DNA of 64,000 bases. It comes from Panopea generosa (Eukaryota > Mollusca > Bivalvia > Adapedonta > Hiatellidae). The stretch covers positions 37,519,458 to 37,583,457 of the forward strand of contig CM055898.1 of NCBI GenBank assembly GCA_029582155.1, in the 5' to 3' direction. Of this stretch, positions 1-63,330 are shown piece by piece. Under the pieces are notes generated by a model. It searched no databases. It saw only the letters and a list, made by a program, of their open reading frames with translations, and was not told where the DNA came from. The position numbers and the translations under genes are program-made. How positions within the stretch are numbered: position 1 is the stretch's first letter; every line of letters begins with the position of its first letter.

Positions 1-835
1 CTCGTTAAGTTGTATAGTTCCGTGGAAAGTTGAGAGAATTAAAGCAATTTTGCACTCTTGAAGCCATGATAGAGATATATTTTAAGTGAAGAAATACAGT
101 TTAAGTATTCGAAACTCATGTAAGAAAACCAAATGAATTGAATTAGAGTTGCTCTCCACCTTTCTACCTATTAAGCGTATTTTTGTCCAATTTCAGTTAA
201 CTACAGTAACGACTTCTACATGAACAAGGGCGATTTGTCAAAATGTACTAAGATATCTCGTAAAAGGTGAGAGCAAATATAATTATATCTAACCTGCCGT
301 TTATTTTTGGTAAAAGTCTTTACTCACATTCGGAAAGTCACATATCAGAATTGTAAGAAAACACTGTCTTCCTCTATTTTCTTCTATTATAGTGTATACT
401 ATAGACTCATATATATATTATATATATATATTTACCAAGTATTCATATTTGATACAGTAGTTAAGAAATAAAATGCCCATTAGGAAATGGGTAGCAATGC
501 ATTATACCATGGTCTTAATCTTTAAATGCATTTTTGACATATACTATAATAGCATTTTGCATGAAAACACAGGTCATTTATGTGTTAAACTATATATCGA
601 CTACCAACACAAATAAATGAAATATTAATTTAAAATTATTTATATCACCATTGTAAAAAAATAAAGCTATCTAATGAGCAAAATGAAAAAATATTAGAAA
701 GTAGTATTTATTGAATTGAAAATGTAGAATCTGCATGTTTCACCAATAAAGATATTACACCTATCAAGGTTCATGTTAACGTTGCTTCATATATGTATGT
801 TTGAATGTTAACCGTGTTTATATTATCCAACAACA

Positions 836-1340
836 AACATGACAACAATAATAGTACTTTTATTCGCCACCATCATATACTGCAACAAAAACAGTCGTGC
901 TTATGTTTCCCTATAATTATCCACCAAAGCAATAATTATAATTAGGTTTATATTCTCTGACGTCGTATACTACAACAATAATAGTGCTTGTATTCTCAGT
1001 CATCATGCACTACACCAATAATGGTGACTATATTCTCCATCATTCTTATGCTGCAACAACAACAGTCGTGCTTGTATATACACCATCATCATATGTGCAA
1101 CAAAAATAGTCGTGCTTGTATTCTCCATTATCATATACTGCAACAACAACAGTCGTTCTTGTATTCTCCGGTATTTTCTATATATTCTACAATATATATA
1201 TATTGAAACTCTAGTAATCGTACTTACATTGTCAAAAATCACACACTATACCAATAACACTCATCATGTGCTCTCACACTAGCTTCATTTTCTAGCAATA
1301 TTTAATGCAACAAAATTAGTTGTGCTGCTTTTATTTTCCA
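836..1340. repeat. Minisatellite of about 45 bp, CAACAA/TATTCTCC-rich (arm A)
   Basis: Repeated blocks of the form ACTGCAACAACAACAGTCG followed by TGCTTGTATTCTCCATCATCAT recur roughly every 40-60 bp with much divergence. The reverse complement of the same array lies at 30290-30680 in arm B, so the array predates the duplication. Short open frames on both strands here are by-products of the repeat. Confidence 0.8.
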
Positions 1341-1443
1341 ACGACATATACTGCAACAATTTAAAACAAGCATGTAAAAGTAGCTACTTTAATAATATAG
1401 TTAATAACATTGTCCTGACGCCATTGTTTATCTCTCACTCCAG

Positions 1444-2538
1444 ATTTGAATGGATAGTACGCTCTCTGGTAGTTGGTCTCCGCAAAGACATACAAGCACT
1501 GATACGCGGTGAAACGACAAGGTAAACTATTTTCCGACAATAAAAAAGTGTATATTAATAAAAACAAATCATAGATATTTAACACGTTTATAAATTGATG
1601 TTATCAAACCTGCGACACGCGATCCATAAAATGTATACGTTAATGATAACTAGGGAATTATCTATTTTAATGATTGTCATGACGATTTTTATGTAAATAG
1701 TGTTATGTCAGCTGAAGTAATACTGTAACAATCTTTGTTTGTTCCCATTATTTTAATTGTTTTACAGTCATACTAAAGCGCACGTATTTGCTTTACGTCT
1801 TATGACATTACTGGAAGGCGGTATGACTGAATTTGAAACGATATTCAACAATGCAGATCTTATAAGAAATAAACTTCGACCGGAAGACAAACGGGTGAGT
1901 TATTGTTGTTGATTAACACACAATCGATCAATACTGTCGTCAGTTATTGTTTCACTATCGCACATCATTAAAACATAAAGCACGATTTAATATACATATT
2001 TATTTCTTACATTGTTACACTGTCATTTAAACTTTAATGAATTCTATTAACATATGTGCAGTTTCTAAAATATAGTTCAAAATACGTTTCCCTTTTTAGT
2101 ATTAGTTCCTACTTAAACATCAACCATTATCTCAATCAAACCATGCAACTAAACTACGCCCCCCCCCCCCACTTTCCAAGGTATCCTACGATCTTTAACC
2201 TCTCGCATCACAAAGTAAATTTTCCGCTCCCCATCTAACCTGTCCTATTTAAAGGCCTCGCTAGAATCCTATACAGTCGCACCTTGACCATTAAAAATAC
2301 ATAAGCCAGGGCTTCATCTCTGAATGCTTACATTTGGTTAATTATCAACATGTAAAACTCTTCGGAATTGATCACCTGTCACTCACTTATTGTATACACC
2401 CAGTCAAAAGGAGTACCATACATTTTTAACATGACATTTGGTTTTAGTTAATACACTATATTTCGCTTTAACAAGTACTCGCCGTCAATCATCTGGACAT
2501 CTACTAAGAGTGTGTCCATTTTAGCTTTATTGCAAAAG

Positions 2539-2588
<50 letters not shown>

Positions 2589-3671
2589 GGAGATAATTAA
2601 ATTCACAACAACGGAATTTACGATTTATAGGATATTTTCAGATGCTCATTCACAATGCATGATATATATATGGAGATAATTATTTGTGAATAACCAAGAC
2701 ATAAATGTACAGACCAGACTACGGCGAGTGCGCCCAGCTACAATGCAAACCATAGATACAATATCAAGGTCTCTGCCAAACCAATAAATTTGGTGTCGAC
2801 CATGACTTATATACTATGGAATTACATGCAACACATCTGGACAGGGTGGACAAATTTACATACATGAAGTGATAGCTTTAAATGAGTAGGATCCAGTTAA
2901 GGATTCATGACTACTCACAAACTATATAAAGGACAGTTTTATAAACCCGTTGGATCATATAGATACAGTAAATTCATATATATTTAATCTCCCTTTATGA
3001 AATTAAATATATATGAATTCACTGTATCTATTGTCTACATTGTCAATTGCACCTTAGCTAATATAACGTTACATTGTCAATGGCGAACTTGCACCTTAGC
3101 TTATACATCGATACAATGTCAATGGCGGACATGCACACCTTAGCTTATATATCGATACATTGTCAATGGCGAACTTGCACCTAAGCTTATATATCAAAAC
3201 ATTGTCAATGGCGAACTTGCACCTTAGCTGATATATCGATACAATGTCAACGGCGAACTTTCACCTTAGCTAATATATCGATACATTGTCAATGGCGAAC
3301 TTTCACCTTAGCTAATATATCGATACATTGTCAATGGCGAACTTTCACCTTAGCTAATATATCGATATATTGTCAATGGCGAACTTGCACATTCGCTTAT
3401 ACATGTATATCGATATATTAGCATTGGTGACCTTGCATATTATGTAATATATCGATACATTGTCAATGGTGTACTTGTATATTGAAATTGTTATTGCAGA
3501 TCATTTTTCATATCATTACGTTTTAAATAATATTTATATGGATGCTAAATACGAAATTTGTGTTTGTAGAGCTTCACAATGGATCCGAGAGAAATCGACT
3601 GGGAAGCATACATACGACTGAATTGCACACTGGTAGCCAATGAATACGAAGACAGAATAAAGAAACATTGA
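1444..3671 (+). CDS. Fatty acyl-CoA reductase, C-terminal exons (partial gene, 5' part outside the window)
   Basis: Three exons fit canonical splice sites and compatible phases: 1444-1521 (after CTCCAG, before GTAAAC), 1768-1894 (after TTTTACAG, before GTGAGT) and 3570-3671 (after TTTGTAG), with TGA at 3669-3671. Exons two and three encode the FAR C-terminal (Sterile-type) domain: KAHVFALRL, then LRPEDKRSFTMDPREIDWEAYI, matching the family pattern L-x-PEDK-x-F-x-x-D-x-R-x-x-D/H-W-x-x-Y. FARs reduce fatty acyl-CoA to fatty alcohol with NADPH, usually at peroxisome or ER membranes. The usual G-x-K/R-K-Y-x-L tail after YI is replaced by a short end, KKH. The first small exon is the least certain. 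The last intron contains a (TA)n tract, a short inverted-repeat element and the 42-bp array. The catalytic half would lie left of the window. I cannot tell whether it is expressed. Confidence 0.7.
2159..2170. repeat. Poly(C) run
   Basis: An uninterrupted run of about 12 C inside the last FAR intron of arm A. It is a simple mononucleotide tract with no other sign of function. Confidence 0.8.
2540..2584. repeat. (TA)n microsatellite
   Basis: A run of alternating TA about 45 bp long directly precedes the AAAGGGAGATAATTAAATTC end of a putative short element. (TA)n tracts often flank or serve as targets of small DNA elements. Confidence 0.85.
2582..2999. mobile_element. Putative short inverted-repeat element with ATAAAGGGAGAT ends
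   Basis: The left edge ATAAAGGGAGATAATTAAAT and the reverse complement of the right edge (ATAAAGGGAGATTAAATATA) share about 12 exact bases and further partial similarity, giving an element of about 420 bp. There is no coding capacity. A related AAGGGAGACAACTC stands at 10311. Target duplications are not clear because the left flank is a (TA)n run. It lies in the last FAR intron of arm A, and I do not see a counterpart in arm B. Confidence 0.45.
2961..3029. repeat. Near-perfect hairpin, 28-bp arms
   Basis: AGATACAGTAAATTCATATA continuing to 2988 is the reverse complement, with one mismatch, of the sequence ending GAATTCACTGTATCT at 3029. The loop is about 12 nt and contains CTCCCTTTATGA. The hairpin straddles the right end of the putative element at 2582-2999 and the start of the 42-bp array. 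Confidence 0.8.
3028..3500. repeat. 42-bp tandem array (ATCGATACATTGTCAATGGC unit), arm A
   Basis: About ten copies of a 42-bp unit containing ATCGATACATTGTCAATGGC followed by GAACTTGCACCTTAGCTAAT. Its reverse complement forms the longer array at 27930-28900 and 29250-29400 in arm B. It lies within the last FAR intron just upstream of the terminal exon, an arrangement conserved in both arms. Confidence 0.9.
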
Positions 3672-4348
3672 AATTGATGAGACAAGGAAGGATGAGCTGT
3701 AACACGTGATCGAAATGATACTGACCTTTGACAAGTCAATGGAAATAACCAAAATATTATTTGAATTACTCGAATGCGACCTGCCAATTATGAATATTAA
3801 TCTATTATTAAAATTAAATTATTACAAAATGCACAAAGTGGGCATATGGAATAGATCTATACAATACAATTTAGAAATTATTTCTTTTGAATGATGAATT
3901 TGATTTCTTTCAATAAATATTATGTTTAACTGTACATAAACTTTAACATAAGCATATCCTAAATATTATAAAACATGTATCTATATTAAAACAATAAATG
4001 GTCTTATACATACCTTTGAAAATTGTTAACAGTATTCATTCATCCCATTCGGTCTTTGTTTAGGCAAATGCGTAACGCTGTACGAGGTAGAAATATGTTT
4101 CTTTAAAATTATGATTATTCTGCCTGAACGAAACTCACATGGTCTTTCATGTAATGGCATAGGTAAGAATTGACAACTTTCTTGATTAAGAGCGCATTGT
4201 CTGTCCATAATCAACGCTCACCATATTTCAATGAAAATTATGTAATGAGCACAAAAAGGCAAGAACGCCAATAGTCATACAAGATATTATGTTAACCCGA
4301 TCATAAAAAAACAGAGGAAGACAAAAGGAATTGCAGAAACGTTTTTAA

Positions 4349-5149
4349 GGTAGTTCGCGACGTTCCTATCGGATATTTTGACATCTGGCGTAATTGATAA
4401 AATATCTGTACACTTGATCTATGAAATCTAAGCTTTCGTTTAAGCTTTGTTTTTTTGTTAATATATTACCGTTATATCTCGATACAGCATCACCTAGTGA
4501 TACATAGTTTTCTGAAAAATGCTGTTTTTCTCTTGTAAAATAATCAATATTAATTCAACATTGCTTTTAATAACATTCGTTAAATTACTTATTTTATTTC
4601 TTGTGTTAAGATTTTTACTGTCATGCAAAAAACAACAACTACTATTTGTTTTACCTTTACATCTAATCATTACGCCCTGGTTGATATAAACGAAGGTTTA
4701 TAAACACGGAATTTTGAACATTTACGGCTGATTGCGCAAAAACGCTCTGGTACAAGTTCTTGAATTTCATATATTATGCTTAACTTTACTTATTTCACTT
4801 AAATATGAACAAATAAAAAAGAGTAATTTTGCGGAATCAAGCGTGAATGATCAAAACATTTGCATTTTAATCAACTAGGGCATATCGAGTAATAATCTTA
4901 TCACAGGAAATAAAATATGTAATTTAATAACGTTATTAAAACAATTATCAATTAAAAATTAACCATTTTATAAGGAAAACGGTGAAAAGCTTCCGAAAAA
5001 CACGAACCGCTAAGGTTAACGAGATTCTATGGTACTGTATTTAAATAAAAAAGATAAAACAAACGATAATACTTCTTAGTATAAGTGTACACATTTTTTA
5101 TTATTTACGCCAGGTGTCAAACAATTCGATAGGAACGCTGCAAACTGCC
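4349..5149. mobile_element. Non-autonomous TTAA-flanked DNA element (piggyBac-like target site), 801 bp
   Basis: The left end, after TTAA at 4345-4348, reads GGTAGTTCGCGACGTTCCTA. The reverse complement of the right end, followed on the plus strand by TCAA, reads GGCAGTTTGCAGCGTTCCTA. Similarity between the ends extends about 75 bp inward through a TTTGACAYCTGGCGTAA stretch. The homologous site in arm B (about 26395-26430) lacks the element and joins the two flanks at a T-run plus TCAA, so this is a real insertion. No transposase frame is present, so it would have to be mobilised in trans. A related copy is at 61010-61480. The piggyBac assignment rests only on the TTAA target. Confidence 0.75.
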
Positions 5150-7887
5150 TCAAATTGAAGTTGTTGTTGAATTGGACGAGAATTACGGTAGTTTTGTAAT
5201 AATAATTTAGAAAATTTTACGTAATTTATTGAACATTTCTATTGCACTTCTTGATAGATTTTTTTATGTAGATTTCTGTTAAATGATTGCATGTGGAGCA
5301 TTTTATGTCTATATTATCTTGAGGATATGAAAGAAACAAAGTACGTAATACTATTTAAGAAAGAACATACTAGAATACTCAATGTCTCATGTCAGATGTC
5401 TCATGTCAGATATAACATTAACACGTTACCGTTCCACAACAATAGTATACTTAATAGCCACATTGAATAAGTTCTTCAATATCAATTGAACAGAAATAAT
5501 AAAATAAAAAAAACGAGCCGCTGCACAATACGCATTTATTGTGAATGTCACTTGTAAATAATAAAATTTCCCTTTCCCTTGAAAATAACGACTTTCATGG
5601 AAGCATATAAAACTTGCCTCTTTCGACAAAATCTTTATAAAATAACATATAAGGAATTGATGATTTGACATATCAATCATTCAAATAATAAGCCTCTAAT
5701 TTCCTATTTGAAAAATGTAAATTTTTGTAATAGTAACTACTCCAACATTTTTAAATACAATTTGCTGAGAATTGTTTCATTTTGTGATGAATTCCATTGT
5801 GCAAAGAAAGAATTTTGATTTGTGTAACATTTGTATAAAATAAAGGTCAATGTAAAATATATGTTTATTAACCAAGCTGATGAAGCATTGGCATACAACA
5901 TTTATACATACAACACTAACAATGTATCATTGCAACTCTGGAGAAACAGATAGTATATAACATATTATACAGTATAGTTCATATCATTACAATTTGTATT
6001 TCTGAGATGAACAGAAGTTAGGATATCTAAAAACGAGATTTTGCGAGTTATTTCGTGAATTCGCTAGATTTCTTAACATCTCAATCTGTTGCTTTTTCAA
6101 CTCTATATACGTCTTTGGAAACACAGACAAAACCAAGAAAATAACATAACATAATAATATTTTTATGCAATAAGTTCAGGATGAATAATAAATAATGAAT
6201 ATTCACTACCACAATCTTTTATCGCCGTAAGCACTTTTCTATCTACGACCTTTATTGCATATGCTCCACTTCTTAAAAAAAAAACAGAAATAAAAGAAAA
6301 CTCTAGGGTCAAATACGGGGTGACATTCTATAACCCTGACAAAATAAGCAATTATTATTTGTAAAATATAACTATGCTCCTAAAAATGTTTATCTTCATA
6401 TAAATCGGCGCTGGCACAGTTATAATGCGACTGTTTTGTCATCACCTAAACGTAAAGTATATTGAATCACATAATTTCTAACGTATTTGTTTTCTTTCTA
6501 TATTACAGCCTTTACAAAAGGTAACCATTAAAACATATTTTATAGATTCCGCTATTAAGTCTTGAAGACGGTGCAGTTTTAGTAAAAACATTAGTGCTGG
6601 CAACGATAAATGAGTAATATTTAAAATAATTCTTCTTAAGATAACATACGTACACCCTGAAGACAAATAGCTTAAAAAGTTGTCCATTTGATACAATGAA
6701 ATTGATTTAGCAAAAACATTTCTCTATATAATCTTATTCTTTAACAGTTGTAAAGTACTGTCTACATTGTTAAATATAACAATGTATGTAAACATCTTAC
6801 AACTGCAAGCTATTATCATAGCTATGTTGCCATATACATATAATTTTATTGCAATTAATTAATTTTGGTTTCAATTTAACATGAAGCTATAGTTAGCACA
6901 AACTTACAATGAATTAGAGCTTTGTTTCATTTGTTTTATCTAATTCATATTTCTTAAACACGACCAAAACTAGTGTTATCTATTTACATATAATTTTTGA
7001 CGGATCAGTATTTACATTATTTTCATTTAGTTTATTACATCAGCTGAACATCTGAATGCTAGTACATGAATTTATATTCTGTTTAACGTGTGCTAATGAA
7101 CATAACCTGTAGCAGAATGATTTAAATATATGATTGATAAATGGAGATTTTCTGAACACATTGTAGAGCATTGCCCCCGTTACTATTGTTCTAACATGTT
7201 TGTATATTATGTAATTAAAGGTTTGAAGATTTGTTCTCATTTGATAGGTACTTGGAGAGATGTTCATAGAATTTTAAGACATCTTGTTAACAATGCAAAT
7301 GAATAACGAGAACTGTTGTCATTAACTAAAAAAAACAAAAACAGTTAGCTTAACTCTTATAAATAGTTAATTAAACTGTTTGTTTCCGTTACTGAAAAAT
7401 GATTCCCTTTTTGGTGTTTGTAATTCTTGTGATTGACGTCGCTCGTGAAATCACATTCACAAATGTTCGCATTCAATGTAAGAAAAAACAACACCAATAT
7501 AAACTCTATAACACATAATATGTTACAAAGGCAGAACTAAATTCTTTTCTAAAGAGTCAGCGCTCAAAAACATCAAATACAAACCGCTATTCATAGTGTA
7601 AGTAATTCGGAAACAAATCACATTCAATATACGATGTTGTCCCAGTAAATTTTAGAATTTGCATAATGCATCGAAACTTAAATACACATTATATCCATTT
7701 TTTTTTCTAACATTTAAAACGCCATTTCTATGTATGTTAAATTATATATAAAGATAAACTTTCTACTAAAACTACAATGACGCCATTTAACGCCGAACGG
7801 TGCACACTAACGTCAAACCTGGAACTAACAACATTTACAGTTTACATACTCTCGAATTCATTAACATTTCGCTGACCACCAACTGTC
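5150..7887. other. Non-coding part of arm A, conserved with arms B and C
   Basis: No gene is recognised. Anchors include 5160-5230 (with 26330-26400 and 60950-61000), 5850-5950 (with 23312-23390 and about 59298-59375), 6090-6130 (with 23100 and 58680, TTTTCTTGGTTCTGT on the other strand), 6480-6600 (with about 22660-22830) and 7780-7880 (with 21290-21400 and 59670-59780). The piece at 6478-6696 keeps a 72-codon open frame on the minus strand that resembles the frame at 22629-22865; see findings. Confidence 0.6.
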
Positions 7888-8493
7888 TTTTAAAGTCAGT
7901 CACTCAGTAATTATTAATTTTATTTGTTTGATATAATAATATTTTACAGCCAAGATATAATGCATCTGTAAGATATAAGTTATAAAGCGAATGGTCATTA
8001 GTATACAGTGATGTCTGTATTTGGAAAACCATGGGTGCATGGAGGACACTTCTTATGAGTGATGGGCTGTCAGCAGTATAACGTGTGTCCAATTTGATAT
8101 AGCGTAAACAAGTCTTAAAATAGAGATGTAATCTTGTGTTATGATTAGTTCGCGGTCACTAAAGCGAACATATGTCAAGCATGTACATGAAAAACATGAA
8201 TTGTATATTAATTAGCTGACTTTTATGACATTAAGTGTGCATTACAGATGATTAAAAAGTTAGGGTTTTAGTTTCAGTTGGGATTGGAGAGGCAGATATT
8301 TAGGTCTTGGTGTTTAGGCAGTGAGATTCGTGTTTAGGCTCGAAGATGGGGATGTTGTCTGAACTATGTTTTGATACGTATATCGTGTTTAAGTAGTGAC
8401 CATTGCAGTTTAAATGAAAGATGTAATAATATAGAATAAATATATATCGAAAAGGAACTGCGCTTTCTTTTAGTTAGTCTGTGATATTGGAAA
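7888..8493. mobile_element. Putative 606-bp insertion private to arm A
   Basis: Arm B reads without interruption from CTGACCACCAATTGTC (complement of about 21285) to TCTCATACTCTCACC (complement of about 21255). In arm A the same landmarks are separated by about 606 bp and flanked by a 7-bp direct repeat AACTGTC (7881-7887 and 8494-8500). No terminal inverted repeats or coding sequence are obvious, so the class is unknown. Confidence 0.5.
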
Positions 8494-8540
8494 AACTGTC
8501 AAATTTGTTTTACGTAACTCTCATACTCTCACCCGTTCTC

Positions 8541-11209
8541 CAGTACAGCTCCTCACATCCTATATTTTACATGATAATGATGGAAAAACGTATTGATGCA
8601 TAAAATAAAATACAGAAATATATCACTGTTTAAATGTGTTTACTTTTCTTAAAATAAATATTAGAATGTAGTTCATCGATTCATTATGTTCTTGTATTTG
8701 CTATTTTGAATACGTAAAAGTGTGAATATTGATCATTTTACGATGGGCGTATGTATACCCTATACCACACATAGTATTTGCGTTAACAAATGTTCTAGGA
8801 ATTTGAATAATTTTGAACAAATCATAAACATGCATCAAATAAATAGGGGTCAATATGCACGACACGTTAAAATAGAATAACACATCAGCTTTAATTTATC
8901 TTACAGAACCATATAACAATCTACGTGTAACAAATTGGTAAAATGGCAAATTGTTTTCTTTTGAATTCAATCACGGAAAGAAAAAAAATGAATGTAGGAC
9001 TAAAAAGGTTTTACAGGCTAGCCTTTTGTATTATAATGTTCGGTCTACAGTATATCAAATGCTACAGACTAAAACAATTAAGAATTAGCGTCAACGATAG
9101 AAGAAATATATATGTCGATCAGGTTTAAAAGCCTACGAATATATACAAGCATAAATTAGACATTATTGAAGAAAACCTTTTTGTTGTTTAATGAAAAAAG
9201 TCTGTTCTATATATGAAAAGAATATCTTGAACAAACAAGAATGGATGTTAATGACCTTATGGTATTGAACAATTAAATAAACTATCCCGTTAACATAAAA
9301 CTATGTTTAATGGGACTGTTCATTATGAACTTCAAAACATCTTACCAATAAAGTTTAAAAACACGGCATATACAAATGATATTGGTTGTTGTTTTGAGAT
9401 TCCTTTATAATTCATTTGTAAAGGAGTACTTATTTACATAGATATGCAAAGTAACATTATGAAACACCATAATGCATAAATGGACCGATTTAAAGAATAT
9501 GTTCAACAAAATAGGTATACTTATTCGTATTTAAAAAACACAAGTCAAAGATTGTTTTTACGAATATTAATTAACATTTAAGACTAACTATGTATAAAAA
9601 AAACATATTATGGTTTCAATAGTGAAATATTATTTATGTATTTTTTTATAAATATATATCAGGCAAATTCAAAAAACCTAGGCGTTAAATTAGACGTTAT
9701 TATAATATAAAGTAAAAAAATCATTTCAGTGTTTCATTCATATCATCAAATTACTTTCGAAAATCTTAAAAAAAAATGTAAAAATGCTCTTTTTAAAAAA
9801 TATCATTGCATTATTGAAACATCTGTAGGTGTCACAGCTTTTTTTCATACGCAAAATCCTTACAAAGTATAGGAAACGGGTCTCTAAAGTATAAGGATAT
9901 ACGCAAATTGTTTTGAATGGAATAACGTGTTATTTCACTAATATTAATAACACGTATAAATATTAATAACACGTGAAAAAAAGTTTATTATAGACAGAAA
10001 CGACTATTCCTACTTTGCATTACCACACAAATAATTAGTTTGATGTATACACTTATAATCATTACAACACTTCATATTGATTAAATATTACTTTAGGTTG
10101 GAGATAAACTAGATATAGTCTGTTTTAACAAAAGTTATAAGACACATTTAAATCATAAATATTGTTTTGAGGAAAGATCGCTTGTGGAAACACATTTCGG
10201 ATTTCTGTACACCAATCAAGGGAGGACATTGTTTCTGTAAATTCAAAAGGTGCTATTTTCGGATAAATTGTTGTTGTGGAATTAAATGACTTATTTCTTT
10301 AGTTTATATTAAGGGAGACAACTCTAGTCAATATATATATGTATATTTACAGACGAATGTTCTCTTTTACAAAACAATCATCGGATGTGTTTTATCTATA
10401 TAAAAGGAGATCCATATTCATAATGTCACACAGGAATGTTCGTCTGTTCCAGTATGGCAGTTGCGAAATAAATGGTTAGTTTTACACAGAGGATTGTACG
10501 TCGTAACAGATGCTTGTTCTACTATGAAATCGATTGAAATCGTATGAAATCTTATAAACAGACTATTGGATTACTCAAATCAGTTTACAGTGGAATATAC
10601 CTCACTTATTTTATTGGTATATGTTTTAATAAAACGCAATAAAATGCGATTTTTTTCATCTCTAGCACTTCTTACGGAAAACTGACACTGTGGAAATTCC
10701 TTGTATTTTTTGAAAGGCCTTCATGGGAATCAATTTATCTCAATTTGATAATGTTTTTAATTTATTTGTCTTGGTATTCAAACGTACATCCGGCAGTATA
10801 ACAGCATTGACCAATCTCCTGAAATAGAAATTCCATGAGAATACATGTGCATAATACGGACAATGCCCGTTCAGTAGAAACATATCTTCAGACAAGAAGT
10901 AAACGACAGTCGGGCGCTAATTAAATATTTAATAACATGATGTACCAAATCGTCTAATGGATTGGGTTATGTGAAACGTATTTTCCAAAATGGGACTTAA
11001 ATAGCGCAATGAAACCAACGAAATGTAATTTATACAACGAAATGGATAACCCAAATCGCTACTTTTACGCTTATTTTTCAGGGAGGGAATTTTATCAGAT
11101 GCTCATTATCAGTTTGTTTATTGATTTCTGACATCTCAGATTAATACAATTATATGGTTATTCAGGTGACACCTATTTCAGATTATCTAGTAAACAAGGG
11201 ACGGGCAAG
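8541..11209. other. AT-rich stretch, no gene seen
   Basis: I find no coding similarity, RNA gene or long tandem repeat. Small items are a twofold repeat of ATATTAATAACACGT near 9940-9975 and the molluscan-repeat-like motif AAGGGAGACAACTC at 10311. Several short open frames are consistent with chance. Confidence 0.6.
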
Positions 11210-12325
11210 TGGTCGCCCTTCTGAAACTGTAGCGCCCCGATGATGCCTGCGTAACTATTAAATATAGGAAGGCCAATAAATCACCGTCCTGAAACACACG
11301 TTCCACTAGGATGCCTATATATCTGGTAAATATAGGAAAGCCAAGAAATCACATTCCTGAAGCAGTAGTTTCAGTAGGATGCCTTTATAACTGGCAAATA
11401 TAGACATGCCAAGAAAGCACCTTCCTTAAGCAGTAGTTCCGCTAGGATGCCGATATATCTGGTAAATATAGTAAAGCCAAGAAATCACATTCCTGAAGCA
11501 GTAGTTTCAGTAGGATGCTTTATATCTGGTTAATATAGAAATGTCAAAAAAGCAGTAGTTCCGCTAGGATGCCTATATATCTGATAAATATAAGAAAGCC
11601 AAGAAAAAATCACCTTGCAGAAGCAGTAGTTCCACTAGGATGCCTCTATATCTGGTAAATGTAGGAAAGCCATGAAATCACTGTCCTGAAGCAGCAGTTT
11701 CACTTAGATGCCTCTATATCTGGTAAATATAGGAAAGCCAAAAAATCACTGTCCTGAAGCAGTTGTTTCACTTAGATGCTTATATATAGTGTATATATAG
11801 GAAAGCCAAGAATTCATCGTCCTTAAACAGTAGTTCCACTAGGATACCTCCATATCTTGTAAATAAAGGAAAGCATAGAAATCATCGTCCTAAAGCAGTA
11901 GTTTCACTTAGATGCCATTATATCTGGTAAATAAAGGAAAACCAAGAAATCATCGTCCTGAAACAGAAGTTTCGCTAGGATGCCTTTACATGTGGTAAAT
12001 AAAGAAAAAACAAGAAATCATCGTCCTGAAACAGTAGTTTCGCTAGGATGCCTTTATATGTGGTAAATACAGGACAGCAAATAATTCACTGTTCTGAAAC
12101 AGAAGTTCCACTAGGATGACTATATATCTGTAAGAGTAAGGAAGGCCAAGCAGTAGTTCAACGAGGATGCCTATATAACTGGTGAATATATGAAAGTCAA
12201 GATATCACCTTTCTGAAGCGGACATTCCACCATGATATCTATGTATCTGGTAAAAATAGGAAAGACAAGCAGTAGTTCCACGAAGATGTCTATATAACTG
12301 GTAAATGTAGGAAATACCGTTCAGT
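11210..12325. repeat. 67-bp minisatellite array
   Basis: About 16-17 diverged copies of a unit containing AGGAAAGCCAAGAAATCACC, CTGAAGCAGTAGTTCCACTA and GGATGCCTATATATCTGGTA. Period is about 67 bp, with some shortened units near 11520-11560 and 12130-12320. The array is unique in the window and lies outside the three duplicated arms. No long frame survives through it. Confidence 0.9.
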
Positions 12326-13111
12326 ATAATACCTCAGTGGATGATCGAGTATAATCAATGCAGCCAAAGGTATAACAACTCAAATTGTTTCAGAGAGAGT
12401 TGTTTGTAGTCATGTGATGAGAGCCCATATTATGAACCTCCATGTCACTTTTTATTAATACAATCTTGTCTAAAGCATCTGGCATTGCTCTAGGAATCTT
12501 GTTAAATATCTGTAAAATATATATAAAAAGAATGAATAGGAAAGGACTTCATTTTCAAAAAGTTTTATTACTGGGTGGTTTACCATTAAAATAAGTATTT
12601 GAAAATTTTTAAACAAAGCTTTTCGTAACACATACGTTAACTTAGCTTAAGCTATTCCGAGATTTTAACTTGTATAGCATGGAACGATAATTTATGACAG
12701 TGGTATAGAAGAACATCTGCTCACCCAAAAATCCACTTATCACAATGCAACATCTCAGGTGTGTATCAGACCAAAGCTCACATGCACGTATGTTTATCAC
12801 TACGCTATATAAAAGCATATAGGCAGCAGTCATTACAGATTCTGTGTATAATCTGGGATAACATGTGTAACTTTTAAAAATTTTGATAGGCATATGAGAA
12901 AAGGTTGATATTAAAGAAATACAGAGTAAACTTAAAACCAGAGGGTAAATCAGCAAACATCAAGCACTAAGTGATACGCCTGAGTCGCATACAAACAACA
13001 TAGAGCGTACACACTCTTCGACAAATGATAAAAGACATAAGTACATATTGTACATGTATCATTCTAATAACAATAAATACATTTTCACAGCTAGACGACA
13101 CTTTTGTATGT
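12326..13111. other. Intergenic stretch with one unrecognised 104-codon frame
   Basis: A 104-codon frame on the minus strand (12642-12956) is the only notable item. It is rich in hydrophobic and Cys residues, has no motif I recognise, no splice signals that tie it to a gene, and no duplicate elsewhere in the window. I treat it as probable chance. Confidence 0.5.
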
Positions 13112-13115
13112 TTAA

Positions 13116-14685: not shown

Positions 14686-14723
<38 letters not shown>

Positions 14724-14927: not shown

Positions 14928-14931
14928 TTAA

Positions 14932-16290: not shown

Positions 16291-16296
16291 TAAATT

Positions 16297-20060: not shown

Positions 20061-20062
20061 AA

Positions 20063-21909: not shown

Positions 21910-21958
21910 AAATACTCGTTAACACACGCACGCACGCACGCTATCACGCACGCACGCA
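21910..21958. repeat. (ACGC)n-type microsatellite
   Basis: Imperfect repeats of ACGC with one interruption (CTATC). Simple sequence within arm B. Confidence 0.85.
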
Positions 21959-22476: not shown

Positions 22477-22628
22477 AGTGTACAATTGAAATATATAAAT
22501 CATAATATAATATATTATTCATCTTGATCCATTTGTATAAAATATTACGTACACTAGTGTAACTCTAAATGCTGCCATGGGATATTACTAAAGCTGCAAG
22601 CAACCTTCTCCTGCTGCATGACTAGAGT

Positions 22629-28900: not shown

Positions 28901-28929
28901 ATGCATGTTCACCACTATTTTTTTCTGTT

Positions 28930-50061: not shown

Positions 50062-50135
50062 TGTTAATTATATCTTAATTCATGAAAATTTTGTCAGTTT
50101 TTTTCCCACATAGACCTTGAATATTCATATATTCT

Positions 50136-50459: not shown

Positions 50460-51290
50460 TTCCTAATTACTAGCAATCTCTTTCATTATGGCCAGTAATT
50501 CCACAGTAACAATATCGTATTGCTCGAGATATATGACCTCCGTGTGCACGGTTGAAAGGCCTATTATCTACGTACTCATAATGGCATGCTACACGATTTG
50601 GTGAAGCACTACCACGTGCATAACTAATAACTTGATTTTCCGCATAGTCGTTTTCTCTTGAAGGCCGGGCTTGGGTTGTAAAATCATTGAAATGTGGCCG
50701 ATTGTCGTGAAATTCACCTATTTTGATCTGCGCGATGTTGATATGTTTGTATGATACTGCTCCGGCCGTTTGTTCTGTTGGCCATTTCTTATGAAATATG
50801 ATTTATCTTGCAAGCCAAATGTCCATGTTTTGAAATTGACTGAAATGCCTATTTTTCTACTCTAACTGTCTAGTAGCCGTTTCGTTCCAGACTGAGACAC
50901 GTGTATTCCATCTTAAGTAAAATATCTTGGTTCCGGATAATGATCTTTGTCGTAAAACATATCACTTGTTACTGAGATGCATCGTACCCCGAAGCGTCCC
51001 CATTAAGCACCCATTCGCTTAATTAACGTGTTAAGATATTGAACATCAACGTCTTTTCGTGGTGCTATAAAACATAAATACACTTGGCAGTCCTGATTTG
51101 CTGATTTTATGAGACTCAGCAAGCGTTCAAAGTCTTCTTCAAATGTGTCCTGGTCCGTGCCTTTTGATGCATCATTTCCTTCAGCCATTACTATAACCTT
51201 ACTTAATACTTTCATATCATACAGCCATTCTTGGATTTTAAAGACAATGTTATGTATTGATAGGGCGGATTTCAGCGTAGCTTGCTATTC
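50460..51290 (-). pseudogene. LINE ORF1 relic: SGNH-like segment and zinc knuckle
   Basis: On the minus strand LSIHNIVFKIQEWLYDMKV continues to VIVMAEGNDASKG (a block III-like G-N-D), QVYLCFIAPRKDVDVQYLN and, in a shifted frame near 50880-50910, DGIHVSQSGTKRLLD with the D-x-x-H of SGNH hydrolases. Further on, CYCGITGHNERDC (about 50465-50510) is a near-CCHC knuckle. ORF1 proteins of CR1-type LINEs often carry an esterase domain and RNA-binding knuckles. Several stops and frameshifts separate the parts. Confidence 0.65.
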
Positions 51291-51435
51291 ATCTACTTCA
51301 TGTAGGACATACTTGTTTATTTCTGAAGATATTGCATGTTTTACTGCGGTAGAATGCGAATTCCTTTGTTCTCTGTTTCACAACAAATGTTACGCAACGA
51401 TGATGGCTGCCAGACAACTGCAAGATGTAAATACC

Positions 51436-51990
51436 GTTGCATGTTTTGGGCATAGTTTTATGAATGATTGAATCATTTTTTGAATAAAATGCATAACGAA
51501 ATTCCAGTGTATACAGAAGATGCACAGTAAACGATTCATTGTTACGGGACTTAAAGTTTAAAAATGACGTTCATCACCGACTACACAAGGCATATCAGTT
51601 TTTGCTGGGGACCGATATAGTATTTATAGAAATTGGATCCAATGGTATGTGTGATCCTGATTATGACGCCAGACAGTTTAGTGAGGACTATCTGTCTTAT
51701 GTACAGTATTTTCAGGAAGGGTTGGGAGTAAAGGCTGTATGCCTCCTGCAACTCTTACCAAGACACTCACCTCCATATGTAAAAAACAATGCACATGTCG
51801 TTCAGGTTAATGTGTTGCTGGAAAAAAACGTGTACTACATTAATGTATAACTTTGGAAACACCGACAGGGATTATGGAATCCAAAGATGGACATATATGA
51901 AAGAGATTGTGTCCATTTGTCATATGAACTTGGTTACCCGAAGTATTATCGTAGTGTGCGTGATTGTATCAAGCGACAGTTGAAATGGTA
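51436..51990 (+). pseudogene. SGNH/GDSL-hydrolase-like relic, opposite strand to the LINE
   Basis: Plus-strand pieces in normal domain order are VACFGHSFM near 51436-51465 (block I-like GxSF), then a frame at 51539-51850 with DIVFIEIGSNGMCDPDYDA (block III-like G-S-N) and VKAVCLLQLLPR, and finally, in a shifted frame from about 51850, LWKHRQGLWNP and ERDCVHLSYELGYPKYYRSV with D-x-x-H. Stops between block I and III and a frameshift before the last block show that it is not functional. Such modules accompany mobile elements in mollusc genomes, but the parent element is not identified here. Confidence 0.6.
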
Positions 51991-54151
51991 CATATTTGTT
52001 GTGTAACAATCAACATACTTTGTAATAGCGAGCATGCTGGGTTTTAACTATATAGCAGTGGCGTATTGCCATGCATCATGCTCAGCTTGTTTGAATGGGC
52101 TCAGTTTAGCTGTATCGTCTCTTTACACATACACATACACAATACTCTGTGCTCTGTCTCGATTTACAGCGGATAGCCTTACTATCCATGTCTGCTGACT
52201 GTTTTCTGGTAGCTAAAGTTTGGCTATGTATAGTCTGAACGGACTTGTTCGAGATATGTTTTGTATGTTCCATTTCTGTATTGCCTCCCCAGACTTAACA
52301 ATGTACATTTATAACATTTAACTGTTTAATGATTTCTGTTATACAGTTAGTTTTGTATCAGATAGTTTGAAATACATCAATGTTCATCATTTTCACATGC
52401 TGCAGGTTTAATTTATTCTGTATTAGTTCAGATTATATGCTACGCCTGAATATGTATCTGCTAGGATTTCTACGTTATGCAATTAAATAATTTGTATTAC
52501 TAATATCACACCGAGCAAAACTATATTAGTATTAGTGGTGCCATATGAGACAGGATATTGAGAGAAATGTGTCGTTTTAAGAAAAAAGCACATGGATAGT
52601 TGCCTATTTTAAGATCGAGATCCAGTGCAAGACTGTCAGAATGGCAGGAAAATCAACTGCTTTTTATCAGCCCTTATTTACAGTATTGAATAAAATCTTT
52701 AACTCTTTCTCTTTACAACCAGTTTAAAAATTTAGGTGTATATTTATATGTAATTATTTTAAGAACATTTTTTAAGCGTAGGACTAATGTTACCGTGCCT
52801 TGGATAAAAGGGGCGTAACTGTGTAGTGAGACGTTAACAATGCTTTCGATTATACATGTATATGTGTGCATTGCAGTTTATAATGCGAAACACATAATGA
52901 AATATTGAAGTAAACATACCAACAACATACAGAACATACTCTTCAATACAGAAAGCTAAATCTGATTGCTGAAACGCGAACGTTTGGTTATACGAAATTA
53001 ACATTTTCACAATTAATACCATTTGATTTAAACAAAAGATGAAATATATTAAAACTATTTACAGTTACAATACGACACAATCAGAGAAACGAATAAGAAG
53101 ATCTATTCCTGATAAACGAAATTACGATATCGATATGATCCAGCGAATATACGTTCCGGTGACAAACTTTGCTCTCTGTCATTAACTTAAATTTCTCCAA
53201 ATCTCAGATAAGTCTTAAATGGACCATTCTTCGGTTATGGTTTTGATTAATCAAGAAATGTAGTTGCAGATGCAGTTTGAATGTTTTGAATGGATGAATT
53301 ATAGACGGGTATTCACACTTATTTTTCCATAAATTTACAGTTAAAACATGGGATGGTATTTCCTTGTATTAAATCATAAATTTATGAATAAAAATAGATT
53401 TCCAAGGACTATATCGTCGAGCCTACCATTATAGATATGAGATCGAACGTTGATTATGGTGAATATTTTAGGCAACTTATTTTAAAATATGTCAATGCTT
53501 TACGAGATAAAAAGCGGACACAAAGTTTAATATCTATTTCATACATTTAAGTGTGACACTGACCTTTGAGCTACATAACTGGGTCTTTGGTGCGATATCG
53601 TTTGATAATGATGAACATTTATTTTGTGCCATGATATTTTTCCTGATTTTTGGATTACAAGATATGGAGCAGACCCAAAATTGTGTACCTATGTCTGACC
53701 CTAAACCTCTGTGTGACCTTGACATTGGAGATCTGGACCTCCGTAGGTGTTAAGATTTCCGTTCGAAAAAGATATAACACTTAGGAACGTTACATCTATG
53801 CAGTATAATTCCAAATTTTAAAAAGTATACTATATACATAGCTTACGAAAGTTCGTAAAACGATACAAGCGAAACACTACACAAAATGAATTTCCCGCCC
53901 TCTTTTCGAAACTTCAAATATTACACTTAGCTAAGTGAAACGGACCACTGGACCTTGCGTATATACGTTGACTCAATATAGTGAGCGTTTATGCGAAAGA
54001 TTGGATTTACTGACTGTGTTAAAACTATATTTTAATTAAAAGAAAAAATAAAACGAACAGACAGACGATGACCAATTTAGGGCGGCGATGGGATTATTGC
54101 AATAGTTCACGAAAGTTAAAAAGCGTAAATGTCTTATTGAAAATTGCATAC
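51991..54151. other. No gene recognised
   Basis: The piece around 53550-53760 (TGTGACACTGACCTTTGAGC, TGTGTGACCTTGACATTGG) resembles widespread GACCTTGACC-type repeats and has an open frame on each strand without a protein match I can name. No FAR exon following the one at 54152-54460 was found. Confidence 0.5.
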
Positions 54152-54460
54152 CTCGAAATATTGTTTGAATCTGTAAGCTGGTGCTTTATTCTTCTTTCCT
54201 CTGACTATAACATATATCTTCTGTACACCAGAACAACTTCTTAGTAGCTTTTCTACTAATGCCTGGCCAACACATCCAGTGACGCCTGTTATCAATATGC
54301 TTTTGTTTTTATAAAACTTCGGAATGCTAGTCGGCCGCCCTTTCACCTGATGCGTGATTGAGCGACGACATATCGGCGTCATGTATGGCGCAACAGTAGA
54401 GTTACAGCGGTGGACATGTATCGATACAAATATGACATTTCGAATTAAAGAAATAACCAT
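54152..54460 (-). CDS. Fatty acyl-CoA reductase, N-terminal exon (NADPH-binding)
   Basis: On the minus strand, from ATG at 54458-54460, the exon encodes about 40 residues of leader and then IPKFYKNKSILITGVTGCVG, QALVEKLLRSC and VQKIYVIVRGK. This is the start of FAR: a conserved I-P-x-F-Y lead-in, the Rossmann T-G-x-T-G-x-x-G dinucleotide site and the V-x-V-R-x-K end of the next strand. It ends with donor GAG|GTATGC at 54151. The leader before IPKFY is longer than the few residues usual in FARs and begins with a hydrophobic stretch, so the real start may be internal or the exon has been extended. Later exons with the YxxxK site are not found downstream. Confidence 0.85.
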
Positions 54461-57736: not shown

Positions 57737-58569
57737 CTTTCAACACTTCCTCGACAAAGTTAGTAGAGGGTCCAGGAGAAACCATTTTACCTTCGATATT
57801 ATAAGTTGGTTATTGGAAATGAATGTACTATAACAAATTGTATGCCATAAATTGTTTTGATATCGCCAGTGTCATAATCGAAAGTGTTAATTCTATCAAA
57901 ACTGTTAATTTTGTCAAGAACTTCTATGCTGTAGGTATCAAATAGTATTCTACGAATCTCAGATAACTTTAACTAGTTTGGTGAACAATTAAGGTTATTT
58001 GATTACATAATAATATCTCTCTTTCATTTTCATTTACTTTTAATCCAAGATATATATTAATACATATATATTCATAATTATTATTTCTACAGGAATCTCA
58101 TTTCAGTTGAAAAAGAATTTATGACAGTACTATGTTTCAGTGTATCATCGTCTTTTGTAGAACATACAACGTTCAAGCATACAACTTATTTTAATAAGAG
58201 TAGTTTTAGTTTTGTATCTGCAAAGATAGATGTAACATTTAAGGTTATAAACAAATCGTATATTTGCAAATAAAAAACAAATAGTGAAACTTTCCACAAT
58301 TTTTACTTTAAAATGCACTTACAGAAACACAGACATGCTTCATTATACTTAAAATATATGCTTTATTTTCTTTTAAAATAAATGTTTCATTAGACTTTTC
58401 AACATTTCATTAAAGAAAACAAAATATATAAAGCAACATAATTGTAATATTAGCAACAATAATTTATATACGCTATCGTTTTGTTAATTTTTGCACCTCA
58501 TTGACCATTGACCTCAACTATGCCCTTAAAACGCAATTTCTTGAGTGGCATCCTCCATCACACGATGCT
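57737..58569. other. No gene seen
   Basis: AT-rich DNA leading into arm C. Confidence 0.5.
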
Positions 58570-59440
58570 TTTCATATTATGGAATGGTGTTATGGTAATG
58601 AAACAATTCTACTTAAAATACCATCAAAAATTAACATAAGCGTCATCTTGCTATTTGGATGGCCTTTTATATGTTATTATATTTTCTTGGTTCTGTATGT
58701 TTTTCCAAGGACGTATATAGAGAATGAAAAAACACACTGATTAAGATGGTATGAACGTTTGCGTATTTACGCAATATATCGAGAAATCTCGTTTTCAAAT
58801 ATTTTCCATTCAACACAGAAATGCAAAGAGTAATGATATGAACACTTTATATAGATCAACACACCCCCAATGTGACCATATGTTGCTATGTTGACTCTAA
58901 TACAGTGTAATGGGTGACTTTAGTGTAGAAGGTATTATTACTGGGATAGTAACCGTACATAATGACAGAAGACATATGACCTCAATCTTCCCATTTGCAT
59001 CACTCGTGATTCAGGGATTAACTGCATGATTTCATTTGTACATGCTCCTATTCGAAAACTGTGGGGTTTGTCGTGTCTGTCGTTTCTATAATGCTGATTA
59101 TAATGTTAGCAATATCGGAAGAACAAGTATATCAATTTCACATTAACTCAAAAGATAGGGTCATTCACCGGTCAGCTTTATTTAAATTAAATAGATATTA
59201 ACTCAGGACATTGTACTAATGTTATCTTATATGTTATTATTCCATATGTTTCTCTACAGTTATAATGATATAATGTAGTGAGTCTTGTATGTATGGATGT
59301 TGTATACACATGCTTCATTAGCTATATTAATAAACATATGAATATTGATTTTGTCTTTTATATAAACATTACACAAATCAAAATTCTTTCTTTGCACCAT
59401 GGTATTCCATACAAAACGATACATTTCCCAGCATGTATTT

Positions 59441-60160
59441 AATGAATGAATGAATAGGGTTTTACGTTATATCAACACATTATAGGTTATTTGACGCCAA
59501 CAGGAAGCTAGGTTGCATGTTCACTCTACGTGTACAACAAATTAACATACGTATGAAAAAATACAACAAATAATGAATATGCAGAATAAACCTAGAACCT
59601 TGATACCTGCAGAACTGCAGAGTTTCAGCAAATTCTATCATAACCTTTGGCCAGTAGAAGTAAAACTAAATGTGACAGTTGGTGGTCAGCGAATTATTTA
59701 TGAACTCGAGAAGGCGTGAACTGTAAAATGTTGTTTATTTGTTTAACGTTAGTGTTCGCCGTTCGGCGTTAAATGACGTTATTGTATTTTAAGTAGAAAT
59801 ATTATCTTTAGAGATATTCCGAACATACTTGAAAATTGCGTATCTAAAAATATACAACAAATAATGAATATGCAGTATCAACCTAGAACTTTGATACCTG
59901 CAGAACTTCAGAGTTTCAGCAAATCTATCATATTACTCAAATTGTCGCTTCTTAATACATGCATGAGCCACAGTGATCCTATTCTTGCCATCACTCATAT
60001 GGCTCTTTGAAACCACACAGGGGTTGGTAATTAAACCGCAATAATGACTATGACATAAAATGATAAAATGAACATAACACCCATTCGGAGGATTCCTACC
60101 CCTTTGCATAGATCGGCAGTGATTCTATTCTTAGCCGGAACCACACGGGCTGCATGCATT
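59441..60160 (-). mobile_element. Retroposon insertion private to arm C
   Basis: The sequence is flanked by GCATGTATTTAAT and GCATGCATTTAAT, an imperfect 13-bp target duplication. Arms A and B have the uninterrupted site (CAGCAAATTGTATTTAAAAC in B). The minus-strand 3' end is (CATT)n at 59441-59453, after ACGTAAAACCCTATT. A short tandem tail plus a 13-bp duplication indicates LINE-mediated retroposition. The interior also holds an 82-bp direct repeat and a segment shared with arms A and B, so it is composite. Confidence 0.6.
59560..59935 (+). repeat. 82-bp direct repeats around a segment that also occurs in arms A and B
   Basis: AACAAATAATGAATATGCAG through GAGTTTCAGCAAATTCTATC occurs near 59562-59643 and again near 59853-59933. 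Between them lies about 210 bp with GACAGTTGGTGGTCAGCG and GTTCGGCGTTAAATGACG, matching 21290-21440 and the complement of 7780-7880. In arm C this segment sits in a different order relative to the other anchors. Confidence 0.8.
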
Positions 60161-61009
60161 TAATATTGTTGAAGTACTTATTATTAAAACATGTATACAC
60201 TGCAACTAAACTATCAAGGAAGTAGTTGTATTTTACATAAACTGCATTTCTTTTAAAATTCAAGATCAGTTTGCGTATTTAAAACATAATTAAACACCTA
60301 AGGTTACATACACCTTACATTTTTAATAAAGGAAATCAGTTGACTGTATGGTTTGAATGATTAATATGCCAAATAATTAATTTCGCACATGCTATCTTAT
60401 TTACATTTTGTATTGAGAGACAAGTTTCCTTTACTTCCATATAAGCCTTGAGTGTTTCCAAGGGATCATTTTATTATTTATAAATGACATTCATAACAGT
60501 TACGTATTGTATAGCGGCTGTAAAATGATTTGCCTCGGTATTATTATTATTTCGGCTCAATTGAGATTGGTAAACTCATTCAATGTGGCTAGAAATTATA
60601 CTTTTGTTGAGGAACGTTAACGGGTTACTGTAACATCTGACGTTTCTTCTTTTAAATAGACTCTAAGAAACACCGAGTCTTCTAGTGTTATCTTTCTTAA
60701 ATAGTATTACCTCTTTAATTCTAAAATATCCATTATCAGATGCAATCATTTAATAGGCAAAAACTACAGACAAATCTATCAAACAGTGCATAAGTTTACG
60801 TTTGAATGCTTGTAAAATACTTCAATTATTCAGAACAATTGATTATCAGTAAGAATATACCAGCAATGGGACTCGTACGTGTTCAAACATTTCAGAATAA
60901 GTGATTGCAAGACATTTAAGTAAAATTTTCAATAAGTTCCGTCAGATTTTCTAAATTATTATTGCACAACTATCGTAATTCTCGTCCCATTTCAGCAACT
61001 TCAATCTTA

Positions 61010-61480
61010 GGCATTTCGCGGCGTTCCTATCGGAGTGATGGGCACCTGGTGTAAACAATTAAAAATGTGTTTACTTATACCATGACATATCATCTTTCGT
61101 TTAAGCTTTGTTTTTTTTCAATACAGTGTCACAGAATATCGTTACGTGTTTGTTTTTTTAAAATTTTCATCGGTTTTCTCCTAAAAAATGGTAAATATTT
61201 AATTGTTTTTATAACATTATTAAATAACTTATTTTGTTTCTTGTGATAAGATTATAACATTGATACAGATAAAACACAATTTGTGTTAGCTTTGCATCTA
61301 CTCGTTACGCCGGGGTTAATTAAAAAGCAGGTTAAAAAACAGCAAATTATGAACATTTACGCCTGATTGCGCAAAAAATGTTCTGTTACAAGTTCTTAAA
61401 ATTAACATATATTCAACTTTATCAATTGCACTATTATATGATTAAAAAGAAGAAGTGTTCCCGCTATTATTACATAAATT
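61010..61480 (+). mobile_element. Partial TTAA-type element related to 4349-5149
   Basis: It begins GGCATTTCGCGGCGTTCCTA after ATCTTA and follows the same flank as the right side of the element in arm A. Its interior (TTTCGTTTAAGCTTTG, TTTACGCCTGATTGCGCAAA, ACAAGTTCTTAAAATT) matches 4430-4800 of arm A in plus orientation. The far inverted repeat is missing; a 144-bp palindrome at 61491-61634 takes its place. Confidence 0.75.
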
Positions 61481-61490
61481 CGAATTAAAC

Positions 61491-61634
61491 TTAAAAATGA
61501 AACACTTAAAAACACACGACGTTAATCTGCTTTTTCGGACGAAGTCGTATTTTAAGTTATTATTATATGGCATTCTTTTGACGTCGTCTGAAATCACAAG
61601 AAAACGTCGTGATTTTTAAATGTTTCATTTTTGA
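61491..61634. mobile_element. 144-bp palindromic miniature element
   Basis: TTAAAAATGAAACACTTAAA through ACGACGTT (61491-61523) is inversely repeated at 61603-61634 with three or four differences. The interior also has partial symmetry (ACGAAGTCG and TTTGACGTCG). It has no coding capacity, and it replaces the right end of the TTAA element in arm C. Confidence 0.65.
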
Positions 61635-62459
61635 TAAATGTAATAAGGTGAACGTTGATCGTCGATAGACAATGCGGTCTTAATGAAGGAAGTTGTCATT
61701 TCTTACTTATGTCATAACATAAAATACAACGTGAGTTTCGTTCAGGCAGAATAATAATAAAATTTAAAGAAACATATTTTCCCTCGTACAGCCTTACGTA
61801 ATTGCCTAAACAGACCGAATGGGATTGAACACTGAATACAAATTTTAAGTAATGTATTATACCATTAATTTTTTTTAATATACACTATATATATATATTA
61901 TAAAACATGCAGGCCGCATTCGAGTAATTTGAAGAATATAAGTCATTGAAATTGACAACGATTTTTTATCGATTTTTGGAACATGCGTCACTGTCTATAA
62001 AGATGCTAAATTACATTTCATATTATATGATATTTCATCAGTTTCGGGTTGCTGATGAAGAGTCAGTATCTTTGTTTCATTTCTTTTAACAGTATATTTA
62101 AAATTGAGATTTACTCATTGTCTGTCCATAGGTGTCAATCTTAGTTTCAACTTTTTTATATCACGTAAGTCATTTTCTTCTCATACCAATATTCAAATCG
62201 GACAATGAGACTTTTTTTCTTTGCTGTATCAAATTCATACGCGGTGTTCTTTGTACTGATATTCCAAAAAAGGAGAATTAAATCTGTACGAGATAGTGAG
62301 CTTTTTCTTTTTGTCATACAGTAGACCGAGGGCTCTATAAATATTATGATAAGAAATACGTGTTGTTAATAATATTGTATATTTACTTATTTTAATAGGA
62401 TATGAAATTATTACCCAAATTAGAAAATATTTTACCAATAACAAAATATTTACAATAAC

Positions 62460-63330
62460 TACAAACACACGTGTCCAATTTATCAATAATCTACTGTCTG
62501 TCACTTATACACTCAGTCTATAACTACTTAACATACCGTCCATTTATCAACTGTATAAGTTTATTTAACAGTGTTTTGTACAATATGGGAATATATTGTA
62601 CGAGTATGTATTGTGGTGAATACTATATTGGAAGAGACGCCGTAGGCACCGGGCCGAATACGGTTTTCACCACAATACGCATGAGTACAATATAATACCA
62701 CATGGTACAAAACAATCTAAAATGGTATTTTTATTCTATACCTCAATCTGAAATAAATTTTTCATTAGATTAAAGAAAAATCTTTTTAAAACAAACAACG
62801 TGATTTCAAAGCAGCAGACGTATGCAATTGCAGTAACAGATATTCGGATTTACCCAGTCTGTAATAGATAACTAGCCGGCACTTCTATGCACCTAGTATA
62901 TAATTACTGAGCTTACAAGTCCTATTTACATATTATCTAGTATCTTTATATACTTGCTGTAATAACAGAAACAATACCCATTCATCTATTATCAATTGTC
63001 TATTACATTTATACAAACATTATATAATAAGCAAACAAACAAGTCACACATGTCCAATTTCAATATTGTTGGCAGAATTTGTTGTTCAACTCTTCTTGCT
63101 CATATACATTTGTAAATATATATAGTCGTGCTATTATTGTAATGTAATGGAATTGTTATAAAGAATTCATATGTTTTAACTAAATAAAACTATTTATTAA
63201 CTAGCTCTTTCATACTATCAGTCTATAATAGTTAAAAACATATTTCATTTATCTATTGTCGATATTTTAGTTCCAATATACACCCTGTATATAATGACTC
63301 AACACACATATTCCATTGATCAATTATGTA
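62460..63330. repeat. 68-bp array units in arm C
   Basis: Units like those at 26640-27560 occur at 62460-62530 and 62830-63330 (TCTATTATCAATTGTCTATT, ACACCCTGTATATAATGACT). The foldback element at 62571-62714 and about 100 bp of other sequence interrupt them. Confidence 0.75.
62571..62714. mobile_element. 144-bp foldback element with GC-rich tip
   Basis: The left arm GTGTTTTGTACAATATGGGA to TATTGTGGTGAA (62571-62620) pairs with the right arm TTCACCACAATACG to GGTACAAAACA (62667-62713) over nearly 50 bp with a few mismatches. The tip, AGAGACGCCGTAGGCACCGG GCCGAATACGG, is far richer in G+C than its surroundings. It lies in arm C next to the 68-bp array and is not seen in arm B. Confidence 0.75.

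Follow-up and report, generated by a model that had tools for sequence, protein, structure and literature searches.

The repeated arms in this stretch of DNA very probably belong to a local cluster of fatty acyl-CoA reductase (FAR) genes, built by repeated duplication of one 26-33 kb unit that comprises a gene and its flanks. The window (the whole stretch of 64,000 nucleotides that was analyzed) spans positions 37519458-37583457 of its contig, in a genome of 1,474,161,289 bases in 39 contigs (1.47 Gb). With tandem repeats masked, it was compared with itself together with 100 kb on either side, a region of 264 kb with zero N; coordinates follow window numbering, with negative values lying before the window. 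Four units, each about 26-33 kb long and each built on one FAR gene, were found in the 264 kb. Their chromosome order is A (+), a spacer with FAR relics, B (-), C (-), and D (-), placing A and B tail-to-tail:

About -17165 to 8550, plus strand (inverted relative to B, C, and D): unit A, with an intact FAR gene, from collinear chains and the gene model.
1 to 8550, plus strand: the 3' part of unit A, with the last introns, exons 7-10, and 3' flank of the intact FAR gene, from the A-B, A-C, and A-D chains.
21240 to 54470, minus strand: unit B, a FAR pseudogene and its 3' flank.
58281 to 87965, minus strand: unit C, with an intact FAR gene.
58281 to 64000, minus strand: the 3' flank of unit C that falls in the window; exon 10 of C, at 64124-64225, lies just outside.
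88408 to 116094, minus strand: unit D, with an intact FAR gene, outside the window.

Duplication of neighboring units is reflected in collinear exons, introns, and flanks, with chains recovered for all six unit pairs: A-B (13 blocks, 6.0 kb aligned), A-C (19 blocks, 9.2 kb), A-D (21 blocks, 8.9 kb), B-C (18 blocks, 6.5 kb), B-D (20 blocks, 5.4 kb), and C-D (13 blocks, 21.4 kb). The collinearity of B is interrupted by long private stretches. C and D also have in common some 7 kb of sequence 5' of exon 1, and no match of B to this shared 5' flank was seen in the 264-kb self-comparison or the unit chains. Differences in unit size are due to private stretches (a retroelement and DDE_3 transposases), deletions, and the lengths of minisatellites at matching intron positions. 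A short part of the 3' flank is found again at 116982-117414 (self-BLAST of the 264 kb).

The initial annotation had proposed that one ancestral segment is present three times in the window, once inverted. Self-BLAST and chaining agreed with this, at nearly the positions proposed: self-comparison and pairwise alignment yielded collinear blocks, rather than only short dispersed repeats. Within the window, positions 1-8550 are collinear and inverted relative to both 21240-31498 and 58.7-61.9 kb, and 23.1-29.1 kb is collinear and direct relative to 58.7-63.8 kb. When the arms were chained, A and B (inverted) shared eight blocks covering 3,709 of the 8,540 A bases, with a score of 2,395 (best of 20 shuffles, 36.8); A and C (inverted) shared three blocks and 903 bases, scoring 643 (best of 20, 38.3); and B and C (direct) shared eight blocks and 1,682 bases, scoring 1,034 (best of 20, 0). 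The control consisted of 20 shuffles per pair of the query in 3-base blocks. Arm A was thus aligned to B over less than half its length at the sensitivity used, and the A-C match was thinner still. Chaining in the opposite orientation gave scores of 52.5 (A-B), 243 (A-C), and 0 (B-C), the A-C value being consistent with a small inverted duplication within A. There, a segment that is single in C is doubled, face to face, at 4348-4808 and 4889-5238, with about 80 bp between the two copies.

The proposed arm coordinates were nearly correct within the window, but the arm ends mark the edge of the window and not the edge of homology, which reaches about -17.2 kb in A, 54.5 kb in B, and 88.0 kb in C. 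Arm C begins nearer 58,281, as judged from the C-D match, than 58570, and continues beyond the window end. That the three arms are the 3' parts of FAR gene units lies beyond the view afforded by the window alone, as do the fourth copy, D, and the pseudogene status of B.

Gene models were built by six-frame comparison of the units, followed by inspection of exon edges for AG/GT boundaries. Genes A, C, and D have complete, open 10-exon frames of 493, 495, and 495 residues, respectively, and intron ends are GT/AG in 27 of 27 cases. The exons of A that fall in the window include the FAR terminal exon that had been recognized in arms A and B, and which was indeed found in both (for B, see below):

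197 to 266, plus strand: FAR gene A exon 7, with AG/GT splice sites and a frame that joins exons 6 and 8.
1444 to 1521, plus strand: FAR gene A exon 8.
1768 to 1894, plus strand: FAR gene A exon 9.
3570 to 3671, plus strand: FAR gene A terminal coding exon 10, with the stop codon.

Whole-gene dN/dS values of 0.325 (A-C), 0.267 (A-D), and 0.372 (C-D) indicate constraint on all three genes, whose synonymous divergence from one another is 0.095-0.231. The D protein is 87.6% identical to that of A and 92.1% identical to that of C. A candidate extra exon after exon 5 and before exon 6 (A -1581 to -1315; D 98142-98231) was dropped because it coincides with a roughly 250-bp element found repeatedly in the 264 kb and because the reading frame runs straight from exon 5 into exon 6.

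The intact genes resemble the animal FAR family (PF07993 plus PF03015) in several respects. The exon-joined D protein, the one FAR protein submitted to the Pfam domain scan, matched NAD_binding_4 (PF07993, the male-sterility NAD-binding domain) over residues 55-330 with 212.7 bits (cut-off 20.1; E = 6.4e-63), and its best relative among solved structures was the fatty acyl-CoA reductase 7eoz (E = 5.7e-32). The motifs ITGATGFVG and YLYTK or YVYTK were seen by eye in A, C, and D; we take TGxTGF (here TGATGF) to be the nucleotide-binding motif of FARs and YxxxK to be a further FAR motif. A difference from the family is that D matched the FAR C-terminal profile PF03015 weakly, below the curated cut-off (24.9 bits against 35.4; E = 2.4e-5), and only over profile positions 49-82 of 93. 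Judging from the family, the products of A, C, and D are putative NAD(P)H-dependent enzymes that would convert fatty acyl-CoA to fatty alcohol.

Unit B, the sole copy lying wholly in the window, is a FAR pseudogene with in-frame stops and missing exons, and counting it among the intact FAR genes would probably be an annotation error. The ten exon peptides were searched against the 264 kb by tblastn (matches of at least 24 bits), which detected seven of the ten exons in B; exons 2, 8, and 9 were not found in B at that threshold. The remains of the gene are as follows:

54149 to 54403, minus strand: B exon 1 from residue 18 on, open, with TGVTGC replacing the TGATGF of A, C, and D.
41197 to 41277, minus strand: B exon 3 (tblastn).
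33430 to 33534, minus strand: B exon 4, with an in-frame stop (tblastn).
33187 to 33231, minus strand: the last 15 codons only of B exon 5, with a stop (tblastn).
32130 to 32330, minus strand: B exon 6, open (tblastn).
31235 to 31300, minus strand: B exon 7, with a stop after its end (tblastn and exon-edge inspection).
30155 to 30164, minus strand: breakpoint of a deletion that removed exons 8 and 9, about 0.7-0.8 kb by comparison with C and D.
27762 to 27842, minus strand: B exon 10, with a stop (tblastn).

At the deletion breakpoint the alignment jumps from 66437 to 65636 in C and from 95946 to 95246 in D. Over exons 1, 3, 4, and 6, with stop codons skipped, dN/dS of B against A, C, and D was 0.33, 0.39, and 0.36, near the values for the intact pairs in the same exons (A-C 0.31, A-D 0.28, C-D 0.25), a similarity suggesting that B remained functional through much of its past. 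The length of the B branch was 0.257 for the exon 1 segment, 0.261 for the exon 3 segment, and 0.052-0.192 for the other seven of the nine four-way segments described below; B and A differed at 28 synonymous sites among about 75 in exons 1 and 3, and at 16.5 among about 67 in exons 4 and 6. From these few sites, compared without an outgroup, B could be a mosaic without one simple history, its 5' half being older than its 3' half, a reading that is unproven.

Non-coding divergence (K2P) in aligned blocks was 0.108 for C-D (19.4 kb), 0.20 for A-C, 0.21 for A-D, 0.24 for A-B, 0.25 for B-D, and 0.29 for B-C; these values are lower bounds, as only BLAST-alignable blocks were measured. In nine segments chosen where all four copies align, 119 sites grouped AB|CD, 7 grouped AC|BD, and 16 grouped AD|BC, with AB|CD the commonest pattern in every segment. 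On the strength of these alignments, C and D are sisters; the comparison is unrooted, made without an outgroup FAR, and does not fix the order of the events that produced A and B. The simplest account would be repeated tandem duplication, in one orientation, of the unit of gene and flanks. Older copies would have arisen first, and the youngest event seen would be a tandem duplication, in direct orientation, from which C and D arose, while either (i) one inversion, or (ii) the inverted insertion of a copy, would have placed A tail-to-tail with B.

The initial annotation had placed a spacer of about 12.7 kb between arms A and B, in agreement with the interval recovered here. Two fragments of FAR exons were found in it:

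8551 to 21239, no strand: spacer between the tail-to-tail units A and B, with only short self-BLAST matches in the 264 kb, including FAR exon 2.
12332 to 12509, minus strand: relic of FAR exon 2, in three tblastn pieces that are 66-91% identical, with one stop.
16294 to 16377, plus strand: relic of FAR exon 10 (tblastn, 71% identical, E = 1.3e-9).

At the DNA level, the exon 2 relic matches the corresponding region in C and D with 76.5% identity. Together, the relics of exons 2 and 10 imply that at least one more ancient FAR copy, now broken up, was probably once present in the spacer. A match to exon 6 at 65742-65885 (+; 29% identical, E = 0.024) was dismissed as chance; apart from it, the FAR exon matches listed at 24 bits or more in the 264 kb all fell in the four units or the two relics. 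A 68-bp minisatellite at 11184-12314 adjoins the exon 2 relic.

The same annotation had raised the possibility that the inverted repeat formed by A and B destabilizes the locus. Units of 26 and 33 kb do face each other across 12.7 kb, and the spacer carries FAR relics on both strands, as might be expected if the repeat were an active source of instability or conversion. Its arms have nevertheless diverged to the K2P of 0.24 given above, and the longest exact match between them is 54 bp, making recombination between them now unlikely as judged from their alignment; C and D, in direct orientation and with a longest exact match of 113 bp, are likelier recombination partners. Present-day instability was thus not borne out, and we consider it highly improbable as an explanation of the locus.

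Slightly less probable again is an assembly artefact in which alternative haplotypes (haplotigs) were laid in tandem, one of them inverted, a possibility that the initial annotation had already judged unlikely. Very divergent haplotypes of one locus are conceivable in principle for C and D, which differ by about 10%. Allelic divergence in heterozygous animals is usually a few percent, and the K2P values of 0.108-0.285 exceed that range, a generic one for animals rather than the species' own; both the 0.108 of C-D and the 0.20-0.29 of the other pairs are too high for ordinary haplotigs. Also arguing against haplotigs are the synonymous divergence among the intact genes, the private stretches of the copies (C, for instance, carries 1.17 kb including a DDE_3 transposase at a place where 92 bases stand in D), and the unbroken sequence, without a single N in the 264 kb of a 93-Mb contig. 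The divergence and the private stretches thus upheld the earlier judgement.

An equally slim chance is given to a regulatory role for the tail-to-tail pair, in which read-through from A would produce B antisense and the resulting small RNAs would tune A, C, and D. Such small RNAs would be generated either by fold-back or by pairing in trans with FAR mRNAs, and the six longest exact A-B matches, at 33-54 bp, exceed small-RNA length. Least probable of all is that the shared blocks represent a dispersed repeat or large transposon rather than a gene duplication: minisatellites and transposon pieces are abundant and the 250-bp element is recurrent, but what is conserved among the copies is at its core a gene of exons and introns that is under constraint, and a single 3'-flank probe gave strong matches at this locus only. 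That 1-kb probe, taken from the 3' flank of B and searched genome-wide (40 of 98 candidates scored), had at least 46 matches, of which at least three were strong (itself, A, and C); the remaining 43 of the 46 listed reached at most 84 bits, many of them on one short stretch of the probe. D went unmatched because its 3' flank does not have that piece.

The FAR units contain tandem arrays and mobile elements, of which the following lie in the window:

3047 to 3477, no strand: A intron-9 minisatellite, 42 bp in 10 copies, within an A-B match.
34017 to 40530, no strand: B intron-3 minisatellite, 41 bp in 159 copies.
48045 to 50067, minus strand: decayed retroelement with reverse transcriptase, between B exons 3 and 1.

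Arrays at the place matching that in A intron 9, assigned by position and with the repeat unit judged by eye, occur at 27922-28867 in B, 64334-64879 in C, and 93500-94556 in D. The intron-3 array has 17.6 copies in A, 6.1 in C, and 10.1 in D; its growth in the intron of the pseudogene may have followed from loss of constraint. With copy numbers between 6 and 159 at one intron, these minisatellites should be useful for studying change in dead copies and in the repeats within them.

In the retroelement, the reverse transcriptase domain RVT_1 was matched at 48045-48803 (2.6e-19), the sole Pfam match among the 6 of 14 window ORFs scanned. No Pfam match was obtained for 23541-23972, 49609-50067, 50470-50802, 51097-51471, or 51497-51850; by eye, 49609-50067 is endonuclease-like and 23541-23972 resembles a retroviral-type aspartic protease. 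Rfam (gathering threshold) and ARAGORN returned no matches in the window. A search for terminal inverted repeats flanking the stretch private to C (79289-80463) gave none that was clear, only internal pairs of 16 bp and 12 bp, and the ends of the element are therefore putative. ORFs matching DDE_3 lie at 79485-80288 (C only) and 84521-85036, and helix-turn-helix matches below the curated cut-offs were noted at 85081-85623 and 112932-113342. The positions 84521-85623 and 112932-113342 occupy matching places in C and D, indicating that this insertion predates the C-D split.

The cluster of four FAR copies, one inverted and one a pseudogene, together with its relics, is real, old, and an ordinary kind of gene-family expansion, and the threefold, once-inverted segment of the window is explained as its edge. 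Dead copies are usual in tandem gene-family expansions. In the Hymenoptera, and bumble bees in particular, FAR genes are reported to have multiplied, some of them clustered and with transposable elements nearby (PMC6361591). The present case concerns another animal and a single small cluster in which one copy is inverted and another is a pseudogene, and a pheromone role is not implied for it. Bivalve C1q-domain genes are reported to form a family grown by tandem duplication (PMC6835236), the same mode of growth in a different gene. Our literature search found no report of FAR tandem duplication in molluscs, and we do not claim that the cluster is unpublished. The locus offers a divergence series of one gene, from the young C-D pair through the older A and B to the relics.

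Two further features were noted outside the window. Upstream of FAR exon 1 of A lies a palindrome (-16770 to -14075) with arms of about 850 bp that are 95.8% identical, far younger than the units, and inside it a second self-complementary stretch of 672 bp. About 22 kb beyond D, at about 138218-158079 (-), is a large lipid-transfer protein gene, with Vitellogenin_N, Vit_open_b-sht, and VWD matched in three ORFs and one further open frame of 3,331 codons that lay outside the Pfam scan; the proximity of a lipid transport gene to the FAR genes is probably due to chance.
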